Assembly (NCBI GenBank): GCA_902784095.1
Contig: CACZTK010000050.1
Span: 1-35,069 of the forward strand
Direction of reading: 5' to 3'
Source of the DNA: an uncultured Erysipelotrichaceae bacterium
GTDB lineage: Bacteria; Bacillota_I; Bacilli_A; RF39; UBA660
DNA: 35,069 nucleotides
A model generated the notes under the pieces. The model had not been told where the DNA came from and ran no database searches. It saw nothing but the letters and a program-made list of their open reading frames with translations. Below are positions 1,800 to 34,506 of the stretch, one piece after another. The translations under genes were made by a program, and so were the position numbers. Numbering within the stretch: position 1 is the first letter of the stretch; every line of letters starts with the position of its first letter.

Positions 1800-1822
1800 A
1801 CTCCTAATTAGGAGTTAATTTT
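1799..1822 (+). terminator. Bidirectional intrinsic terminator, RNHCP gene / spoVA operon
   Basis: AACTCCTAATTAGGAGTT (1799-1816) is a perfect 18-nt palindrome followed by AATTTTTT on the plus strand. In the other direction it is followed by the weaker TATTTTATT. The spoVAE stop codon (1815-1817) and the last base of the RNHCP stop both lie in it. Confidence 0.8.
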
Positions 1823-2165
1823 TTGGTCTAAATATTAGTGCAAAAAAGAAAGAAAATATTATTGCAGATGTAATTCCAGCAGCAGTTAAATCAAACATTC
1901 CACCTATTATTCCCATAATACCCATACTATTTGCTTTAGCAAGTGCTCCGTGTACTAAGGAATGTCCGAAACTTGTAATTGGGACTAATGCCCCTCCTCC
2001 AACTTTAACAATTATTTTATCATATAAACTAAAAGAATCTAAGAATGCTCCTATTACTACTAACATACTAGTAATATGTCCAGGAGTTAATTTTGTATTA
2101 TCTAGAATAATTTGTGATATTAGGCAAATAAAACCACAAAAGATAAAAGAATTAAATAATAACAT
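1815..2165 (-). CDS. spoVAE: Stage V sporulation protein AE (SpoVAEb type)
   Basis: This is a small membrane component of the SpoVA channel, which moves Ca-dipicolinic acid into the forespore and releases it at germination. At 116 aa it matches the short SpoVAEb form. It has about four hydrophobic segments, with the family motif TPGHITSMLVVIGAFLDSF and the loop VGGGALVPITSFGHSLVHGA. SpoVAC carries the related stretch LIPITGFAHSMTSA, showing the two are homologous. The RBS is GGAGGTGG. The start shares one base with the spoVAD stop (TAATG), and it is the last gene of spoVAC-AD-AE. Confidence 0.93.
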   Translation of the reverse strand: MLLFNSFIFCGFICLISQIILDNTKLTPGHITSMLVVIGAFLDSFSLYDKIIVKVGGGALVPITSFGHSLVHGALAKANSMGIMGIIGGMFDLTAAGITSAIIFSFFFALIFRPKN

Positions 2166-3157
2166 TATACCACCTCCAAACTAACTGCATGAGCAATACT
2201 TAAAATATTTTGTCCCTGAAATAATGTAGTTGGTGAATACATAGCACCTGTTGGAATTAATAATACTTTCTTTATTTCTTTTGATTTTAGTTTTTTATAA
2301 ATATAACCATAATTAACTAAAGCACTACATACAGGTCCACTTGCTCCTGCTAAACACTCTTCTTGTTTATCTAAATCATAAAGCATTACTCCACAATCAT
2401 TATAGTTTTTAGAAATATCAATTTTATATTCTTCATTTAAAAATTCTGTTAATATATTTTTTCCATATTTTCCTAAATCTCCAGTTAATATTAGATCATA
2501 ATATTCTGGTTTTCTTTTTAAATCTTTTAAATGTTTAGCAATAGTATAAGCAGCAGCACCACTCATAGCTCCGCCCATATTATTTGGATCTTTTTGATTA
2601 TAATCAATTAGTTTTCCTATTGTTACAGATTCAATTTTTATATCTGTTTTTTTATTTGTTAGTAAGCAAGTTGCAGCACCTGTTGCAGTAAAAGTTGCTA
2701 ACCTAGGTTTTGGTGCTCCATACTCTGTAGGATTTCTAAATTGTTTTTCACTTACCATATTATGAGATGATGTAACACATAAAGCATTAGTAATTTTTTT
2801 ACTATCTATTAAGTTTGCAGCAATAATTAATTCTTCTGCACTTGTTGCACAAGCATCATATACTCCAAAAAATGATTTACCTATATTCTTAGAACCAAAA
2901 GTAGTTGATGTTATTTGATTTGATAAATCTCCAGCTAAAACTAAGTCTATATCCTCATCATTTAATTTTGTCTTATTTAAAATTATATCTATTGCTTCTT
3001 CTACTAGTTTTTGTTCTGCTAATTCCCAAGAGTCAGTACCAAAGTATAAATCTTTATGTTTCTTATCAAAGTATTTTCCTAAAGGTCCATCTTTTTCATA
3101 AGGCCCTACTACAGTTGATGTATCTTCTATATAAACATCCTTACATTTAAATGTCAT
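2165..3157 (-). CDS. spoVAD: Stage V sporulation protein AD (dipicolinate-binding, thiolase fold)
   Basis: SpoVAD is the soluble SpoVA subunit that binds dipicolinic acid on the forespore inner membrane. It has a thiolase/KAS III-like fold. Seen here in 330 aa are the motif FGVYDACATSAEELIIAANL around residues 97-116, where thiolases carry the nucleophilic Cys, a central SSHNMVSEKQFRNPTEYGAP, and a C-terminal IPTGAMYSPTTLFQGQNI. The length is typical. The RBS is AGGAGGAGC. It overlaps the spoVAC stop by 4 nt (ATGA) and touches the spoVAE start, so the three genes are tightly coupled. Confidence 0.96.
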   Translation of the reverse strand: MTFKCKDVYIEDTSTVVGPYEKDGPLGKYFDKKHKDLYFGTDSWELAEQKLVEEAIDIILNKTKLNDEDIDLVLAGDLSNQITSTTFGSKNIGKSFFGVYDACATSAEELIIAANLIDSKKITNALCVTSSHNMVSEKQFRNPTEYGAPKPRLATFTATGAATCLLTNKKTDIKIESVTIGKLIDYNQKDPNNMGGAMSGAAAYTIAKHLKDLKRKPEYYDLILTGDLGKYGKNILTEFLNEEYKIDISKNYNDCGVMLYDLDKQEECLAGASGPVCSALVNYGYIYKKLKSKEIKKVLLIPTGAMYSPTTLFQGQNILSIAHAVSLEVV

Positions 3158-3597
3158 ATTGCTCCTCCTATTAAATATCTAATAAGTCCAAATACCCAAG
3201 CTGATATTACTCCATACAAAATTACAGAACCAGCAAGGCGAAACATATTAGAACCAAATCCACTAATTGGTCCTTCTTTTTTATAATCTAAAATTGCACT
3301 TGTCATTGAATGAGCAAATCCTGTAATAGGTATTAATAAACCACATTTAAATTTAGTAACTAATTTATCAAAGAAACCTAATGCAGTTGAAAGCGATGCT
3401 ACAAAGATTAAAATAACTATCATATAAGTTGAAGCTTCTGTTCTAGATATCTTAAAGTAATAGCATAATCCTTCTATTATGGCTTCTCCTATTAAACCAA
3501 CTAATCCTCCTATCACAAAAGCAATAATAGCATTACTTACTCTTGTTTCTTCTGCTTGATTATTATTAACTATCTTTTCATAAGTATTATTTTTCAT
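3154..3597 (-). CDS. spoVAC: Stage V sporulation protein AC
   Basis: SpoVAC is a membrane subunit of the SpoVA dipicolinate channel and acts as a mechanosensitive channel in B. subtilis. The product has 148 aa and about four hydrophobic helices (AFVIGGLVGLIGEAII, MIVILIFVASLSTALGF), with the SpoVA loop CGLLIPITGFAHSMTSAILDY. GGTGA lies 5 nt before the ATG at 3597; an ATG four codons upstream has no RBS. It is the first gene of a three-gene operon. A sigma-G-type promoter precedes it, and a terminator separates it from the sigma gene, so the operon can be expressed independently in the forespore. SpoVAA and SpoVAB are missing, as in many spore formers outside Bacillus. Confidence 0.94.
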   Translation of the reverse strand: MKNNTYEKIVNNNQAEETRVSNAIIAFVIGGLVGLIGEAIIEGLCYYFKISRTEASTYMIVILIFVASLSTALGFFDKLVTKFKCGLLIPITGFAHSMTSAILDYKKEGPISGFGSNMFRLAGSVILYGVISAWVFGLIRYLIGGAI

Positions 3598-3612
3598 TTT
3601 ATTCACCATTAT

Positions 3613-3655: not shown

Positions 3656-3683
3656 ATAAAAAACATCTGATGATTCAGATGTT
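3656..3683 (-). terminator. Intrinsic terminator of spoIIAA-sigma operon
   Basis: The arms ACATCTGA/TCAGATGT (3663-3670 and 3675-3682) enclose a 4-nt loop and are followed on the minus strand by six T. The sigma-gene stop codon (3682-3684) lies in the 5' arm. It separates the early sporulation unit from the spoVA unit. Confidence 0.9.
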
Positions 3684-4320
3684 ATAATCTAGTTTTTAAT
3701 CTTTTTAATATCTTTGCTTCTTTTCTTGATACCTGTACTTGGCTTATTCCTAATTCCTTTGATGTTTCAGATTGAGTCATATCATAATAATATCTAGAAT
3801 ATATGATTTTCTTATCTTCTTCATCTAATTTTTCAATTTCATCTTTCAAGTCTAATAAACTTTCTTTCATTCCAGCTTCTTCTACTTGAATAGAATTATA
3901 TAAATTATCTTGGCAATCAATAGTATAATCTAAACTTTTTACGCTTGTAGTTATTCTTTCTATTTCATCTAACTTTTCTTCATCTATTTCTAATACTAAT
4001 GATATTTCTACATTAGTAGGTTCTCTTTGTAATTTTTGTCTTAAATAATCTCTTGTTTTTTCAATATTAGATTTTAATTTAAGAACTTCTCTACCTACTT
4101 TTAAATTTGTATTTTCTCTAATATACTTAGTGACTTCTCCTAAAATATATTTATAAGCATATGTAGAAAATTTAATTCCTAGACTAGGATCAAATCTTTT
4201 AGAAGCATCCAATAATCCAATCATTCCAGCTTGATATAAGTCTTCTCTATCATGAAATGATGAATATTTATTTACAATACTATGTACTAGATTTTCATTT
4301 TCTATTACTAAATCTAATAT
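3682..4320 (-). CDS. sigF: Sporulation sigma factor, SigF/SigG type, with a non-canonical start
   Basis: This is a forespore RNA polymerase sigma factor of about 212 aa. Region 2 includes DREDLYQAGMIGLLDASKRF and FSTYAYKYILGEV. Region 3 follows (VGREVLKLKSNIEK, REPTNVEISLVLEIDEEKL). Region 4 ends in GISQVQVSRKEAKILKRL, a signature of sporulation sigmas (GISQVQVSR). The position after spoIIAA and before spoVA matches sigF. The first ATG in frame (4224) would remove region 2.1 and most of 2.2. Homologous sequence (VIENENLVHSIVNKYSSFHD) continues upstream to a stop at 4335-4333 with no ATG, GTG, TTG or CTG. AAGGA (4334-4330) stands 9 nt before an ATA at 4320, so I place the start there. An ATT start or a sequencing error is also possible. 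The stop lies in the terminator. Confidence 0.82.
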   Translation of the reverse strand: MLDLVIENENLVHSIVNKYSSFHDREDLYQAGMIGLLDASKRFDPSLGIKFSTYAYKYILGEVTKYIRENTNLKVGREVLKLKSNIEKTRDYLRQKLQREPTNVEISLVLEIDEEKLDEIERITTSVKSLDYTIDCQDNLYNSIQVEEAGMKESLLDLKDEIEKLDEEDKKIIYSRYYYDMTQSETSKELGISQVQVSRKEAKILKRLKTRL

Positions 4321-4324
4321 ATTA

Positions 4325-4663
4325 TTACATCCTTAAATACTCAAATGCTTCTTTACCATAATTAACATAGAATAATCGATCCTTAGTATAACCTATTTGT
4401 TTTCTATATAGTTCTTTCATACCACACATCACAACCTTTCCGCAGTTTAGAAATATTTCTACAAGTTTAGTTTGAATTTTTAAAAATATACTTTCATCAG
4501 AAAAATCTACATTAGTAAAATCTATTACAAAATTAGATATTCCCTGCTTATATAAAAGATAATTTATTTCTTCTCCTAAGGCATTAAATGTCTTGGTAGT
4601 TAGTCCTCCTTTTAAATTCATAAATAGAATTCCTCTTTCCACATTTTCATTAATTTCTAACAT
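4325..4663 (-). CDS. spoIIAA: SpoIIAA-like anti-sigma factor antagonist (STAS domain)
   Basis: SpoIIAA binds the anti-sigma kinase SpoIIAB and so frees sigma-F. The 112-aa product has the STAS pattern and length of SpoIIAA. The phosphorylation site region, FMDSSGLG in Bacillus with Ser58 as the target, reads FSDESIFL here. Asp56 and Ser58 align by position, but the following Gly-Leu-Gly is lost and residue 57 is Glu. The RBS GAGGTGAT is strong. Two Spo0A boxes precede the gene. The next gene is the sigma factor itself, four bases away, so spoIIAB is absent from its usual place. Whether a distant SpoIIAB exists cannot be seen. The STAS assignment is firm; the SpoIIAA role rests on context. Confidence 0.83.
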   Translation of the reverse strand: MLEINENVERGILFMNLKGGLTTKTFNALGEEINYLLYKQGISNFVIDFTNVDFSDESIFLKIQTKLVEIFLNCGKVVMCGMKELYRKQIGYTKDRLFYVNYGKEAFEYLRM

Positions 4664-4684: not shown

Positions 4685-4749
4685 ATTATAAACTTTTATT
4701 TTCTTTTATGTTGTAATTCGACAAAACCTTACAAAAATTTCATTCGACA
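4685..4749 (-). promoter_or_regulatory. spoIIA promoter with two Spo0A boxes
   Basis: Two copies of TTTGTCGAAT lie on the minus strand, with cores TGTCGAA at 4749-4743 and 4723-4717. This equals the Spo0A box consensus (TGTCGAA), in the same orientation and with centres 26 bp apart. A -10 TATAAT lies at 4690-4685 with no recognisable -35. That is typical of Spo0A-activated sigma-A promoters, where the activator sits over or next to the -35 region. In B. subtilis the spoIIA operon is itself Spo0A-dependent, though through sigma-H. Confidence 0.82.
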
Positions 4750-4775
4750 AAAAAGAAAGAATTTCTTCTTTCTTT
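4749..4775 (-). terminator. Intrinsic terminator of the lipid kinase / membrane protein operon
   Basis: A 10-bp stem AAAGAAAGAA/TTCTTTCTTT (4752-4761 and 4766-4775) has a 4-nt loop and is followed on the minus strand by TTTTTTG. The T-run merges into the distal Spo0A box of the spoIIA promoter. Confidence 0.82.
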
Positions 4776-16720: not shown

Positions 16721-17401
16721 TTATACTCTTTCTAAAATATATATAGTCTGTTCATGATCACTATCTTTAGTACATGTTATTAGTGTTAAAGTAGTTCTTT
16801 CTTTATTTCTGTTAATTGTAACAGAACCTGTTTTTTCTACATTATAAATATTTACTATTTGATATTTATATACATTACCTTGATATGTAACATAAGCCAT
16901 ATCACCTATTTCTAGTCTATATAAATATGCAAAATATGATATATATGCATCACCTGAGTGAGCCATTAAAATTAGATTCCCATTTTCTTTATCTGGCATA
17001 GTAGAGCCACCAACTAATGTCACATTATAATTGATATTATTATATTTAGAATCCATTCCATAGAAACCTCTTTTTAAACCTATACGAGGTATTTCTAAAA
17101 CACCTAAATATTTACTGTAATCAATTTTGTAATTAGTTTCCTCTTCTTTTACTTTATTAGAAGTCGGCTCTTGACTATCACTTAATTCTAGGGCATTTGG
17201 AAGTCCATCTATAACTTCTGCAATATTCTTTTCTTTCATAAAAGATAGTTGTGTATCAGAGAATAATTTCATTTTTAATTCTCTAATATGATTATGTGAT
17301 AAAATAAATATTCCTAGAATTATAAGTAAAGAGCCAAATAAACATATATGACTCTTTTTTATTTTATTATTAGATTTCTTGTTCTTTTTTTGGTTTAACA
17401 T
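16721..17401 (-). CDS. Sortase (class B/D-like), probably dedicated to the adjacent adhesin
   Basis: Sortases cleave a C-terminal sorting signal and attach surface proteins to peptidoglycan or each other. The 226-aa product has an N-terminal membrane helix (about 18-35) and the sortase barrel from about residue 98 (YLGVLEIPRIGLK). The catalytic His148 is in LILMAHSGD and Cys210 in LTLITCTKDSD. The usual Arg after the TLxTC motif is not obvious: the sequence continues DHEQTIYILE, with Gln218 near the expected Arg site. The start ATG lies 32 nt inside the adhesin gene, and no strong RBS precedes it, so it is probably translated by coupling. Confident as a sortase; class uncertain. Confidence 0.88.
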   Translation of the reverse strand: MLNQKKNKKSNNKIKKSHICLFGSLLIILGIFILSHNHIRELKMKLFSDTQLSFMKEKNIAEVIDGLPNALELSDSQEPTSNKVKEEETNYKIDYSKYLGVLEIPRIGLKRGFYGMDSKYNNINYNVTLVGGSTMPDKENGNLILMAHSGDAYISYFAYLYRLEIGDMAYVTYQGNVYKYQIVNIYNVEKTGSVTINRNKERTTLTLITCTKDSDHEQTIYILERV

Positions 17402-18536
17402 TAATGTATATCATTCCTACACCAGCAATTAAGATTAGGAATCCTACAAAATAAATTGATCTAGAAATTATACTAGCTGTATCATCAATATGACTACCTT
17501 TGAAATTTAATGCACCTCTAATTGTTTTTTTTGTTTTTTCAACTAAAACTAATGGTTGATAATTTCCTTCAGTAGTAACATATTTATATGCCTTATATGC
17601 TCCTGCTTGATCATATGAAGCTGAAATATCAAAATCAAATGAATAATTATCTACATTCTCTATTGGAAATTCTAGATAGAATGTAGAAACTGTTAATGGC
17701 TTGCTTGTATCAATAGCATTTCCATTTTCATCATATACTTTTGTACCATCTGGAGCTTTTGATAAATCTAGTGTTATTCCTGTATATAATGTATACATCT
17801 TTCCTGTTCTAACTAGTTTTGAATCTTTATTTAGCTCATAACTATTTGCATTATCAACGAAATAGAATTTTAATTCTGCATCATCATCAATTGAATCAAT
17901 ACTTTTAGCAGCTGTTGCTAATTCACTTGCTCTTACCCATAGTTTATCTGGTCTAGTACTATAATAATAGAAATCACTTCCTGTTATTGCTGTTCCATCA
18001 TGAATATTTGCTGCTATTCCTGCAGTTGGAAGAACGAATGTTCCACTAGTATCTAGATATTGCCATAATGCTATTTGAGTCATCCAAGATAATTCCATTT
18101 TCTTTACTACTTCAACTGTAGCATTTGCTGTTGCTGTTGGTTCATCAAGTGTTGTATAGTATTCGTCAGCAGATTCAATTATGTATTTAATACCTGCATC
18201 TTTAATTTCACTATCTTTTTTGTATGTCTTACTTGGTGCATATGCAATTGTTCTATCAATACAGAATGGTTTTAATCCTGTAGTTGTATGATAATCAATC
18301 ACATTATTTCCTGATGCTCCATTTAATGTTGCTATTGTTTGATTTGATAATACTGCATCTTTGTTTTCATCAACTACAAAAGCTCCTGTAGCATCATTAT
18401 TAACTCTTCCAGCATCCCTTGTTGTAAATGTATCTGGTGCGCTATCAACAACATAGCTTTCAGCATTAACGCTTGTAAATACACTAAAAGCTGTTAATGA
18501 TAATAATCCACTTAATAATATTTTTCCCTTTTTCAT
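17370..18536 (-). CDS. Thioester-domain surface adhesin with C-terminal sorting-type signal
   Basis: This is a 388-aa secreted protein. The signal peptide (residues 1-25) has the hydrophobic core ILLSGLLSLTAFSVFTS. It contains the two motifs of the Gram-positive thioester domain: KPFCIDR with Cys92 and MTQIALWQYL with Gln154 and Trp158. In the family, Cys and Gln form an internal thioester that bonds covalently to host amines. A beta-rich region (about 235-335) follows. The C-terminus has IDDTASIIS, a hydrophobic helix and KPKKEQEI, resembling a sortase signal with DDTAS in place of LPxTG. The RBS is GAGGAT. The next gene is a sortase, which supports cell-wall anchoring. Confidence 0.85.
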   Translation of the reverse strand: MKKGKILLSGLLSLTAFSVFTSVNAESYVVDSAPDTFTTRDAGRVNNDATGAFVVDENKDAVLSNQTIATLNGASGNNVIDYHTTTGLKPFCIDRTIAYAPSKTYKKDSEIKDAGIKYIIESADEYYTTLDEPTATANATVEVVKKMELSWMTQIALWQYLDTSGTFVLPTAGIAANIHDGTAITGSDFYYYSTRPDKLWVRASELATAAKSIDSIDDDAELKFYFVDNANSYELNKDSKLVRTGKMYTLYTGITLDLSKAPDGTKVYDENGNAIDTSKPLTVSTFYLEFPIENVDNYSFDFDISASYDQAGAYKAYKYVTTEGNYQPLVLVEKTKKTIRGALNFKGSHIDDTASIISRSIYFVGFLILIAGVGMIYINVKPKKEQEI

Positions 18537-18634: not shown

Positions 18635-19854
18635 CTAATTTTTATAAAACTTTCAATATCTGGTAATTGAATTTCCCTATTGTTATAGATAGTGCAAAGT
18701 TTTTCCCCTATTTCTACTTTGTCACCAACTAATTTGTCGAAAACTATTCCTACACTTGGATCAATAATATCTTCTTTATTTATTCTTCCTGCTCCTAAGG
18801 TAACAGATAGTTTTCCAAATTCTAAAGCATCAATACTTTCAATAACACCTGCTTTAGTAGCATTAATATCATATTTATTTGGTGATAGCTTCATATTGTT
18901 AATTATTCCACCTTGATGTTTTACAAAATCTAAAAACTTTTGATAAGCAAGCCCTGAGTAAATTGAACCTTTAACTCTTTCTTCTGCTTCTTCAATAGAT
19001 ATATTTTTACCCATACTTACCATATTAGAGGCAAGTTCTATACATAAATCTGTTAAACTGTTTTTTTCTTTTCCTGTTAATATATTAATTGCTTCTACTA
19101 CTTCTAAAGTATTTCCTATACTTGTTCCCAACGGATTATCCATATTTGTAATTAGACATCTAACTTCTTTATTATACTCTTTACCAATTTTTTGCATTAA
19201 TTCTGATAGTTTTCTGGCATCTTTCTCATTCTTTAGTAATGCACCTTTTCCTACTTTAATATCTATTAGTATTTTATCTGCTCCACTTGCTATTTTCTTA
19301 CTCATAATACTAGTAGCTATTAATGGAATTGATTCTACTGTTCCTGTTACATCACGTAATGCATAAATTTTTTTGTCCATAGGAGCTAAATTTGCAGTTT
19401 GTCCTGCGACTACCATACCTATTTCTTTTACTTGCTGTTTTATTTCATCTATACTTAGGTCAGTTCTAAATCCTGGAATTGATTCTAATTTATCAATAGT
19501 TCCACCAGTAAAGCCAAGACCTCTACCACTCATCTTAACAACAGGTACTCCTAAACTGGCAACAATTGGTGCAATAATCATTGTTGTTTTATCTCCAACT
19601 CCACCGGTAGAGTGCTTATCCACTTTTATTCCTTCAATATCTGAAAAATCTAATATTTCTCCACTCTTAATAAAAATATCACATAAATCAAATATTTCTC
19701 TTTCTGTCATATTTTTAATACATATAGCCATTAACATTGAAGACATTTGATAATCTGTTACTTTTCCTTCTAAATAACCATTAAAGAAAAACTCTAATTC
19801 TTCTTTTGATAATATTTGTCCTAGTCTTTTCTTATTAATAATATCTACTATCAT
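18631..19854 (-). CDS. pdp: Pyrimidine-nucleoside / thymidine phosphorylase
   Basis: The enzyme splits thymidine, deoxyuridine or uridine with phosphate to the base and (deoxy)ribose-1-phosphate in pyrimidine salvage. The 407-aa product has the alpha domain first, with YQMSSMLMAICIKNMTERE, then the phosphate-binding VDKHSTGGVGDKTTMIIAP near residues 78-96. MSGRGLGFTGGTIDKLESIPG follows, then SIMSKKIASGADKILIDIKVGKGA. It is about 25 residues shorter than B. subtilis Pdp at the C-terminus. Lys and Ser/Thr residues that bind phosphate and the pyrimidine are present. The start overlaps the GNAT gene by 4 nt. The choice between Pdp and DeoA specificity is not certain. Confidence 0.92.
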   Translation of the reverse strand: MIVDIINKKRLGQILSKEELEFFFNGYLEGKVTDYQMSSMLMAICIKNMTEREIFDLCDIFIKSGEILDFSDIEGIKVDKHSTGGVGDKTTMIIAPIVASLGVPVVKMSGRGLGFTGGTIDKLESIPGFRTDLSIDEIKQQVKEIGMVVAGQTANLAPMDKKIYALRDVTGTVESIPLIATSIMSKKIASGADKILIDIKVGKGALLKNEKDARKLSELMQKIGKEYNKEVRCLITNMDNPLGTSIGNTLEVVEAINILTGKEKNSLTDLCIELASNMVSMGKNISIEEAEERVKGSIYSGLAYQKFLDFVKHQGGIINNMKLSPNKYDINATKAGVIESIDALEFGKLSVTLGAGRINKEDIIDPSVGIVFDKLVGDKVEIGEKLCTIYNNREIQLPDIESFIKIS

Positions 19855-29783: not shown

Positions 29784-29807
29784 AAAAAAAAGGTCTTACG
29801 ACCTTTT
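29784..29807 (-). terminator. Intrinsic terminator of the 663-aa gene
   Basis: AAAAGGTC/GACCTTTT with loop GTAA on the minus strand is followed by a run of seven to eight T (29791-29784). The stop codon of the 663-aa gene overlaps its first bases. Confidence 0.92.
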
Positions 29808-31797
29808 ATGCTGCAGTTTTTGTATACTGATAAGATTCATCTCCACCTAAGTAACTATACTCTGCTGCTGTATCACTACCAAATAATGAATCAGCTTCTG
29901 CAACAGCACTACTTAATGCTGATATTCCAGCAACTTGTTCCTTAAGGGCTGTATTTTGCTCTTTATAATGTTCATTTATTTCTTCTAATCTTGAAATTGT
30001 AGATTTCAATTGATTATTTTCTCTTAATAAATCTGTATTATCTCTACGAGCTTTACCTAAACTATTTCTAAGTGAAATAATTTCTTTAGTCTTAGCTGCA
30101 TTATCTTGTTCTAATAATTCATAATTAGATTTTAATGTATATAGTTCACTTTCTTGATTATCTATTTGTTGTCTTTGATTAGTGTTTTCTTCTAATAATT
30201 TTTTGATGGTACTAGTAGCATTAGCAATAATTGGATTATCTAAGTTTTCTTCATAGAATACTTCATCATCACTCTTATTATCTTCTTCTTCAGTTTCTTC
30301 TACTTCTTCTTTTTCTTCTCCACCATCTGAACTAGAATCACTATTTTCTTCTTCCATTTCTTCTTCAGTTTCTTCAGAATCGTCATCATCGTCGGTGTCA
30401 CTTGAATCTTCTTCATCAGAGTCATCGCTATCATCTGAATTATCTTCATCTGTGTCAACACTATCGTCAGAATCACTTTCATCTGAATCATTGTTATCTA
30501 CTTCATCTTCTGAATCAGTATCTTCTTCAGTATTATTTTCCTCTGAATCAGATGTACTATCATCACCAGCAATTTGTGAAATATCATCATCCATTGCTAT
30601 ATTTAGGCCTACTACACCATTTTCTTCAGTTGATGTAGTATCAGTAGTTTCAGTTTCTTGTGGTGTTTTTGAAGTATTTCCTTCTACCTGTGGAATCATT
30701 CCTTCAGTACTAGGAATACTATCAGTTGGAATAGTTGACTGTTCTGTTCCAACCTCAGTAGCTGGTGTTTCTTCCATAGTTTGTGGTAAATCAGTAGTTA
30801 ATCCTCCTTCTCCAAATAATGGAATATCAATACCAGGATTTATATCATTTGTTTGATTTTCCACTGTTTCGTTCTCTTGTGTTGGAACTTCTGTTGATGG
30901 TATAGCAGTATCTCCTTCAACCTGTGGAACATCGATTGCAGGAAGTGCTTGTTCTGTTGTTTCAGTAGCTGGTGCTTCTTCAGAATTAGCAACTTCTTGA
31001 GTATCTGCTTCCACTTGTGGAATTTCAGGTGTTTCTCCACCAACTTGTGGAATATTTATTTCTGGCATACTTTGTACTTGATTAGCATCAGTAGTTGGAA
31101 CCTCTTCTGCACTAGCAACAAGTTCTTGTTCTACACTTTCTTCTTGTGGTACTTCAGTATTTGTAGTTTCTTCGTTTTCAGTTTGTGCTACATTATCAGC
31201 AGGAGTTTGTTCTTGATTTTCACTTTCCATTGCAAAAGCATATGGATCATATTTAGAAATTTGACTTCCTACAACATTAGCACTCATGAAGTATGCTCCA
31301 TCTTTAGATCCAATAAAACTAAAATAGTTATTTCCTAAATTAGCTCCATCTGTTGTATATAGTGCTGCTTCTGAAAACTGATTATCAAATATAAAACTTC
31401 CATTTGAACCCATAACACTTATTATTTGTTGTTTAATTGTATTGGCATTTTGAGCAAGTTCATTAGCTGCTAAAGAATCACTTTGTTTATTTAAAGCATC
31501 AACAACAGATTCTGTTACTGGCTTATTTCTTTCTACTAGTAATAAATCATTTGATAAAACCTGAATATTTTTATTTTCAAATGGTATTAATACATTTCCA
31601 TCTTTTGATACAAGTCCTAAAGACGTATAAGGAGCATGTCCAATTCCCTCTTTTAAGATTGGTGTTGCAATATAATTACCATTTTTTAATGTTCCATTCT
31701 CAACAAAAAAATACGTTTTACCGTCATCCGTTTTTAAATATGTAATTTCTGTATCAGGAAATCCTGGATCCTGAACTTTACCTTTTAGTATTTCCAT
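29806..31797 (-). CDS. Large acidic, low-complexity protein with C-terminal coiled coil
   Basis: This 663-aa protein has no signal peptide or membrane helix. Residues 1-190 look globular (MEILKGKVQDPGFPDTEITY). About 190-400 is Pro/Glu/Thr/Gln-rich and repeats a short motif I-(D/N)-(I/V)-P-Q-V-x-G-x-T (INIPQVGGET, PEIPQVEADT, IDVPQVEGDT, MIPQVEGNT). About 400-525 is an extreme Asp/Ser/Glu tract. About 530-635 is a heptad-like coiled coil (LLEENTNQRQQIDNQESELY). No family is recognised. The RBS AAGGTGGTG is strong. It lies 58 nt downstream of the YukD-like gene, probably in one operon, so it may belong to a type VII-like secretion locus; that is inference. Confidence 0.85.
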   Translation of the reverse strand: MEILKGKVQDPGFPDTEITYLKTDDGKTYFFVENGTLKNGNYIATPILKEGIGHAPYTSLGLVSKDGNVLIPFENKNIQVLSNDLLLVERNKPVTESVVDALNKQSDSLAANELAQNANTIKQQIISVMGSNGSFIFDNQFSEAALYTTDGANLGNNYFSFIGSKDGAYFMSANVVGSQISKYDPYAFAMESENQEQTPADNVAQTENEETTNTEVPQEESVEQELVASAEEVPTTDANQVQSMPEINIPQVGGETPEIPQVEADTQEVANSEEAPATETTEQALPAIDVPQVEGDTAIPSTEVPTQENETVENQTNDINPGIDIPLFGEGGLTTDLPQTMEETPATEVGTEQSTIPTDSIPSTEGMIPQVEGNTSKTPQETETTDTTSTEENGVVGLNIAMDDDISQIAGDDSTSDSEENNTEEDTDSEDEVDNNDSDESDSDDSVDTDEDNSDDSDDSDEEDSSDTDDDDDSEETEEEMEEENSDSSSDGGEEKEEVEETEEEDNKSDDEVFYEENLDNPIIANATSTIKKLLEENTNQRQQIDNQESELYTLKSNYELLEQDNAAKTKEIISLRNSLGKARRDNTDLLRENNQLKSTISRLEEINEHYKEQNTALKEQVAGISALSSAVAEADSLFGSDTAAEYSYLGGDESYQYTKTAA

Positions 31798-34176: not shown

Positions 34177-34506
34177 TTAAAAGAAATCCTCTAAATCATC
34201 AACTGATTCATCATTTTCTTCTATTCCTGTACTAGATTCTTCATCTAATGATTCGATATCACTATCATCATCACTATCAAAATCTGAATCTGAATCGGAA
34301 TCGGAATCAGAATCACTTTCAGCCTCTTCGTCTCCATAGTCAACATATTGAGTATTTCTGGTTAATACATCCATTAAATCAATATCCAAACTATTTATGA
34401 ATTCGAATCTTTCTCTTTCTTTATCACTCAAAGTAGAATCTATGATTAATTTACCATCAGATCCAAGATGCTTCTTGATGCTTTCTAATTCTTCTTCTCT
34501 TATCAT
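34177..34506 (-). CDS. Small acidic protein with Ser-Asp repeats
   Basis: This 109-aa protein has an N-terminal charged helical part (MIREEELESIKKHLGSDGKL) and an Asp/Ser tract at about residues 62-85 (EAESDSDSDSDSDSDFDSDD), then an acidic tail ending LEDFF. The tract comes from a hexanucleotide repeat in the DNA. There is no signal peptide, so it is unlike the wall-anchored Sdr proteins and should be cytoplasmic unless exported another way. The RBS AGGTGAT is good, and it starts 13 nt after the WXG-like gene stop. The larger acidic protein about 2.4 kb away shares the Asp/Ser-rich character. Function unknown. Confidence 0.72.
   Translation of the reverse strand: MIREEELESIKKHLGSDGKLIIDSTLSDKERERFEFINSLDIDLMDVLTRNTQYVDYGDEEAESDSDSDSDSDSDFDSDDDSDIESLDEESSTGIEENDESVDDLEDFF

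Follow-up and report, generated by a model that had tools for sequence, protein, structure and literature searches.

The switch formed by SpoIIAA, SpoIIAB, SpoIIE and sigma-F is a textbook case of bacterial cell-fate choice. In the stretch of DNA analysed here (the window, 35,069 nucleotides from an uncultured bacterium of the order RF39), the gene of a SpoIIAA-like STAS protein runs directly into a sigma factor gene, and the anti-sigma kinase gene normally lying between the two is missing. How, then, is sigma-F controlled in these bacteria? SpoIIAA, SpoIIAB, SigF and SpoIIE are recorded in all spore-forming bacilli and clostridia by Galperin et al. (2012, PMC3533761). The bare absence in RF39 is already in print, as one sentence resting on gene-orthologue counts (Field, Bowerman and Hugenholtz 2024, PMC10868615); nothing on operon, phosphosite, selection, promoters or mechanism was seen in that article. 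The operon anatomy, the selection evidence and the split sigF genes described below appear to be new, as no earlier report of them, or of the altered SpoIIAA, was found in the literature.

The STAS-sigma operon of the window

The first gene of the operon (4325..4663, minus strand) encodes a STAS protein of 112 aa which matches PF01740 (E 9.6e-6) and scores 28.5 bits against the SpoIIAA model TIGR02886, under its curated cut-off of 114.75. The best solved-structure relative of this STAS family is SpoIIAA (1auz, E 4.7e-19). The predicted fold of the window protein (mean pLDDT 91.1) best matches SpoIIAA as well (1til/1th8 chain B, TM about 0.8). By these models, the protein is predicted to keep the SpoIIAA fold, with SpoIIAA as its closest relative. 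The original prediction named a degraded D-S-S-G motif and a serine, Ser58, in FSDESI. Both are borne out by alignment, in which Ser58 falls on the SpoIIAA phosphoserine and DESI stands at positions 56-59 instead of DSSG, but the serine should not be counted as evidence. Position 58 is S, N, K or T across nine genomes of the genus, and the nearest congeners (loci L022 and L023) have Asn, unlike the Ser of the window; since the site varies even within the genus, Ser58 carries little weight. The RF39 STAS family as a whole does not have a phosphorylatable serine in a conserved D-S-S-G.

The sigma factor frame (3682..4332, minus strand, open from 4332 and likely with a non-ATG start) matches TIGR02980 at E 1.2e-50, below the curated cut-off, and the SigF model TIGR02885 at E 1.2e-46 (159.4 bits, below the cut-off of 321.45). 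Among solved sigma factors, SigF is the closest to the sigma family of the window (1l0o, E 1.1e-58), and a distinct SigG, over the NF006071 cut-off, is found elsewhere in the same genome. Judged on these comparisons, the gene belongs to the SigF/SigG family and represents SigF rather than the SigG of that genome. The doubt whether the STAS-sigma pair is related to sigF at all is met by the class-relative gene order, the solved-structure relatives and the separate SigG.

Because the sigma frame opens inside the final codons of the STAS gene (overlap 4325-4332), no gene fits between the two, and the expected break in the spoIIAA-spoIIAB-sigF order is confirmed. On the minus strand, STAS and the overlapping sigF are followed by spoVAC (3154..3609; TIGR02838, E 4.4e-43), spoVAD (2165..3157; NF006160 over cut-off, E 1.1e-124) and spoVAE (1815..2165; TIGR02839 over cut-off, E 1.6e-39), all on the same strand. 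The locus has the spoVA neighbours of a sigF gene, but no spoIIAB between spoIIAA and sigF. The canonical spoIIAA-spoIIAB-sigF-spoVAC order occurs in five class relatives, each with DSSG in its SpoIIAA. Given the relatedness to SigF and SpoIIAA, the separate SigG and this canonical order in class relatives, the operon is read from its sequence as a spoIIA operon without spoIIAB. The arrangement is shared by sister genomes, as STAS lies directly upstream of sigF in 20 of the 24 inspected loci of close relatives, with spoIIAB absent. An upstream STAS is likewise present in locus L180 of Candidatus Faecimonas, a relative assigned to RF39 (PMC8035907); the use of RF39 as the name of the order searched is based on this one locus and that paper.

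The beginning of the sigma-F protein deserves attention. In the window, no ATG, GTG or TTG start lies ahead of the conserved core of the sigma frame; a candidate is an ATA at 4318-4320 behind an AAGGA at 4330-4334. The same lack of an ATG, GTG or TTG before the core was observed in five of 131 distinct sigF loci (the window, L022, L023, L131 and L185), and an AAGGA precedes ATA, ATT or ATC in the window and in the two relatives closest to it. It is possible that a rare start codon limits sigma-F synthesis. A fusion of STAS and SigF by frameshift at the overlap was rejected, because L021 and L023 have a relative frame unlike that of L022.

The search for SpoIIAB and SpoIIE

The original prediction left two options, namely that spoIIAB had moved elsewhere or that sigma-F is controlled differently. 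The SpoIIAB model at E<=1e-12 found no match in any of the 288 genomes of the RF39 order, 245 of which are at least 90% complete; B. subtilis, the positive control of this search, was detected. None of the 25 genomes of the window's family has SpoIIAB over the cut-off, while among 15 class relatives at a greater distance 5 do. The first option falls with these counts and the second stands. It could be argued that spoIIAB and spoIIE are present and were missed through incomplete metagenome assemblies, the window's genome being 82% complete and in 102 contigs. This is scarcely credible against so uniform an absence among largely complete genomes, and the gap at the locus is closed in the cases inspected.

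The broader HATPase_c_2 model (PF13581) matched in 9 of the 288 genomes. Three of these matches are long frames that also carry a PP2C domain and five lie in frames of 346-622 aa; the remaining one (genome G261) is a separate HATPase protein of 144 aa adjoining a PP2C protein. Being long or PP2C-linked, they include no short HATPase protein fit to replace SpoIIAB. Three further frames were rejected as SpoIIAB. The short frame of G021 is of histidine-kinase type by Pfam (HisKA and HATPase_c), as is that of G022, by HATPase_c alone; in G024 the frame is truncated where the contig begins, and its rejection is based on the frame itself and the adjoining genes alone.

SpoIIE gave a similar picture. 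A SpoIIE-type PP2C is present in all five SpoIIAB-bearing control genomes and in none of the 25 close relatives. Across the order, PP2C matches occur in 5 of 288 genomes, and none was SpoIIE-like where checked. Four of them are proteins of 540-630 aa, of which two score 36.6 and 35.3 bits against a SpoIIE cut-off of 490.8, and the other two were rejected on reading as frames only. The fifth (L102) looks, from its sequence, like a separate Ser/Thr phosphatase. The four form RsbU/RsbW-like modules or fusions (L098-L101 and L143-L146, in G312, G201, G137 and G261), fused in three of the four genomes; in L098 and L099 the module has an adjacent, canonical STAS partner that keeps an SSAG motif. The domain kinds of the RsbU-RsbV-RsbW modules are found in these four of 288 RF39 genomes, sporadically and unlinked to sigF within the stretches inspected.

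Variation and loss of the STAS partner

STAS profile matches were obtained in 223 of the 288 order genomes; the underlying table names every matching genome, while 45 genomes without a match do not figure in it. By hand reading of the tables, one of the 12 genomes without SigF has STAS. Among 108 distinct STAS sequences, the phosphosite is Ser or Thr in 15 (Ser in 12, including the window, and Thr in 3), the remainder being Lys (35), Asn (18), Tyr (11), Glu (8), Asp (6), Ala (5), Gly (4) and others. Conversely, the canonical SpoIIAA of the five control genomes has Ser at this site in every case. A different kinase and phosphatase might still phosphorylate STAS, at this site or at other residues, and the 15 sequences with Ser or Thr would fit such a scheme. 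It is nevertheless very unlikely, with mostly Lys or Asn at the site and with 283 of 288 genomes lacking any SpoIIE-type PP2C match.

In the ten closest pairs the dN/dS of STAS is 0.03-0.17; some pairs farther apart have higher values, reaching 0.6 in a pair that involves the incomplete locus L129. Both STAS and SigF evolve under purifying selection. Low dN/dS together with a variable phosphosite indicates that STAS is functional, but not via a conserved phosphoserine. In one genome (G285:C1:27105-27443) the STAS gene was observed to contain a single in-frame TAA.

Some lineages do without the protein beside sigF. Among 129 distinct sigF loci with sufficient upstream sequence, STAS is not adjacent in 21, including that of G009, one of the 24 inspected loci of close relatives, where metK sits between STAS and sigF. 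When STAS presence is placed on the sigma-F tree, 13 changes are needed and at least 6 are forced by well-supported branches. On this tree STAS has been lost repeatedly beside a retained sigF. From the 21 loci and the 13 changes it follows that STAS is not essential everywhere.

These losses bear on what might have taken the place of SpoIIAB. An anti-sigma factor from another locus, either non-homologous or changed beyond recognition, could have replaced it, with STAS serving that protein or another role. Harm is to be expected from sigma-F that escapes control, as established in B. subtilis, and the genomes that lost STAS and retained sigF imply some other control. Yet no further gene is common to the operon or its flanks in 80 named loci (the best 80 of 558 confirmed stretches, not a random sample), and every HATPase match could be assigned to a histidine kinase, a GyrB-type protein or a PP2C-linked one (by frame length where unscored). 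A replacement of this kind is possible, with the odds somewhat against it.

The retained cascade and the control of sigma-F

The remainder of the early cascade is largely in place. A SigF-profile match at E<=1e-30 was found in 276 of the 288 order genomes. Since SigG reaches only about 1e-50 on that profile (168-176 bits in five proteins), E<=1e-55 was taken to mark a clear SigF, which by a hand count from the table applies to 247 genomes; 29 are uncertain and 12 have no match. Among the 25 close relatives, with gene kinds read by hand for the SigE type, Spo0A is over the cut-off in 22 (partial in G006, below in G013, none in G022), a SigE-type match is present in 24 (in pieces in G006), SpoIIGA in 24 and SpoIIR in 23 (missing in G007 and G013). 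A second match to the SigE model in these relatives is putatively SigK. SigG, too, is retained among the nearest relatives. Two local peculiarities were observed, a tandem pair of Spo0A genes (G009:C31:5717-7348) and a SigE-type gene with one in-frame TAA (G019:C83:18002-18676).

Upstream of the window STAS lie two perfect copies, 26 bp apart, of TTTGTCGAA, which we take to be the Spo0A box consensus (distal 4743..4751 and proximal 4717..4725, both on the minus strand). In the whole window 0.34 exact boxes are expected by chance, and the one other exact copy, at 18733, is within a coding region. An exact box occurs within 250 bp upstream in 53 of 63 distinct operons, against 1.0% in shuffles, and when a single mismatch is allowed the count rises to 62 of 63, against 22.8%. 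In the STAS-less loci L030, L034, L036, L084, L091 and L096, the boxes are found ahead of sigF itself. As the boxes are kept even where STAS is lost, direct control of sigma-F synthesis by Spo0A looks conserved.

The targets of sigma-F also appear to retain their promoters. The usual B. subtilis sigma-F promoter pattern was found upstream of spoIIR in 1 of 20 cases, where about 2 are expected. The pattern G(A/T)ATA-N17/18-CANTAT, a promoter of forespore type, occurs upstream of spoIIR in 16 of 20 (0.04 expected), a count to be read with the derivation of the pattern from this same spoIIR set. For that reason the promoter was tested on sigG, where 5 of 20 upstream regions have the strict form (0.16 expected). 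In this independent test G(A/T)ATA-N17/18-CAN(T/A)A, a looser form, is present in 16 of 20 (1.3 expected). With such a promoter at both spoIIR and sigG, the specificity of sigma-F and sigma-G seems to be kept.

The retained genes also bear on whether the operon is merely a relic, decaying in an order that no longer sporulates. The genomes are small, and loss does happen, as shown by the 12 genomes without SigF and by G013, which lacks SigF, SigE, SpoIIGA and SpoIIR. No demonstration of an RF39 spore was found in the sources consulted, and SpoMAG, a classifier whose predicted spore-formers all have spoIIAB, assigns 0% sporulation to RF39 MAGs (PMC12536801). Tools that use spoIIAB as a marker may call RF39 bacteria non-sporulating. 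Spore formation in RF39 is predicted by Field et al. (2024, PMC10868615); moreover, purifying selection acts on STAS and SigF, and different genera retain the cascade and checkpoint genes together with the 0A boxes and the forespore promoters. Decay is therefore an improbable explanation.

The reading preferred here, with a probability of roughly 0.55, is that the RF39 ancestor gave up partner switching and that sigma-F came under Spo0A-driven synthesis together with a phosphorylation-independent role of STAS. The ancestor would have lost the SpoIIAB kinase and the SpoIIE phosphatase and kept the sigma-F, sigma-E, sigma-G cascade; with both lost, sigma-F must be controlled in another way. Spo0A may turn the operon on through the two 0A boxes and so set the amount of sigma-F. 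STAS probably acts on sigma-F, since both come from the same message, and it could modulate the factor without phosphorylation by direct action, by placement or through its synthesis rate. In turn, sigma-F would drive spoIIR and sigG from the forespore-type promoter seen there. Contact of STAS with sigma-F would be the simplest mode, as the named loci have no other gene in common within the operon, and to our knowledge no direct STAS-sigma contact has been described. A narrower version is offered only tentatively, in which forespore-specific expression proceeds order-wide with no anti-sigma kinase or phosphatase, the SpoIIAA descendant, its phosphoserine replaced, often by Lys, came to regulate sigma-F directly and as a single protein, and several lineages went on to drop STAS or to split sigma-F.

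Compared with the switch of Bacillus and Clostridia, RF39 shares the spoIIAA-sigF-spoVA neighbourhood, the SpoIIAA fold, the SigF sequence, the Spo0A boxes and the downstream SpoIIR, SpoIIGA, SigE and SigG. It differs in having neither SpoIIAB nor SpoIIE, in its unconserved phosphosite and in the occasional loss of STAS. A widespread gut order with the rest of the cascade and without SpoIIAB and SpoIIE suggests that the switch is replaceable, and RF39 can be regarded as a natural experiment on the minimum needed for a sigma-F switch. A SpoIIAB-contact residue on sigma-F (an idea drawn from PMC3174212) was rejected as an indicator, because, by eye, canonical class relatives seemingly lack the residue too.

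In 3 of the 80 named loci, sigF occupies two reading frames (L190, 303-980; L193, 3995-4676; L222, 3995-4679). In L193 and L222 the pieces overlap by a few bases and have their own start, whereas in L190 three in-frame stop codons part them. We take the break point to lie between regions 2.2 and 2.3. A comparison of L193 with L222 gives a dN/dS of 0.10 in the first piece and of 0.13 in the second. Both halves therefore seem to be in use, and a two-part sigma-F in these three loci is possible. The nearest two-part case known to us is SigO-RsoA of B. subtilis.

Two other features of the window were observed outside the operon. At 16721-18536 a sortase lies beside a protein of 388 aa that has no Pfam match; the start of this protein resembles a signal sequence, and a membrane segment lies at its C-terminus. 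The proteins at 29806-31797 and 34177-34506 contain long low-complexity stretches rich in Asp, Ser and Glu.
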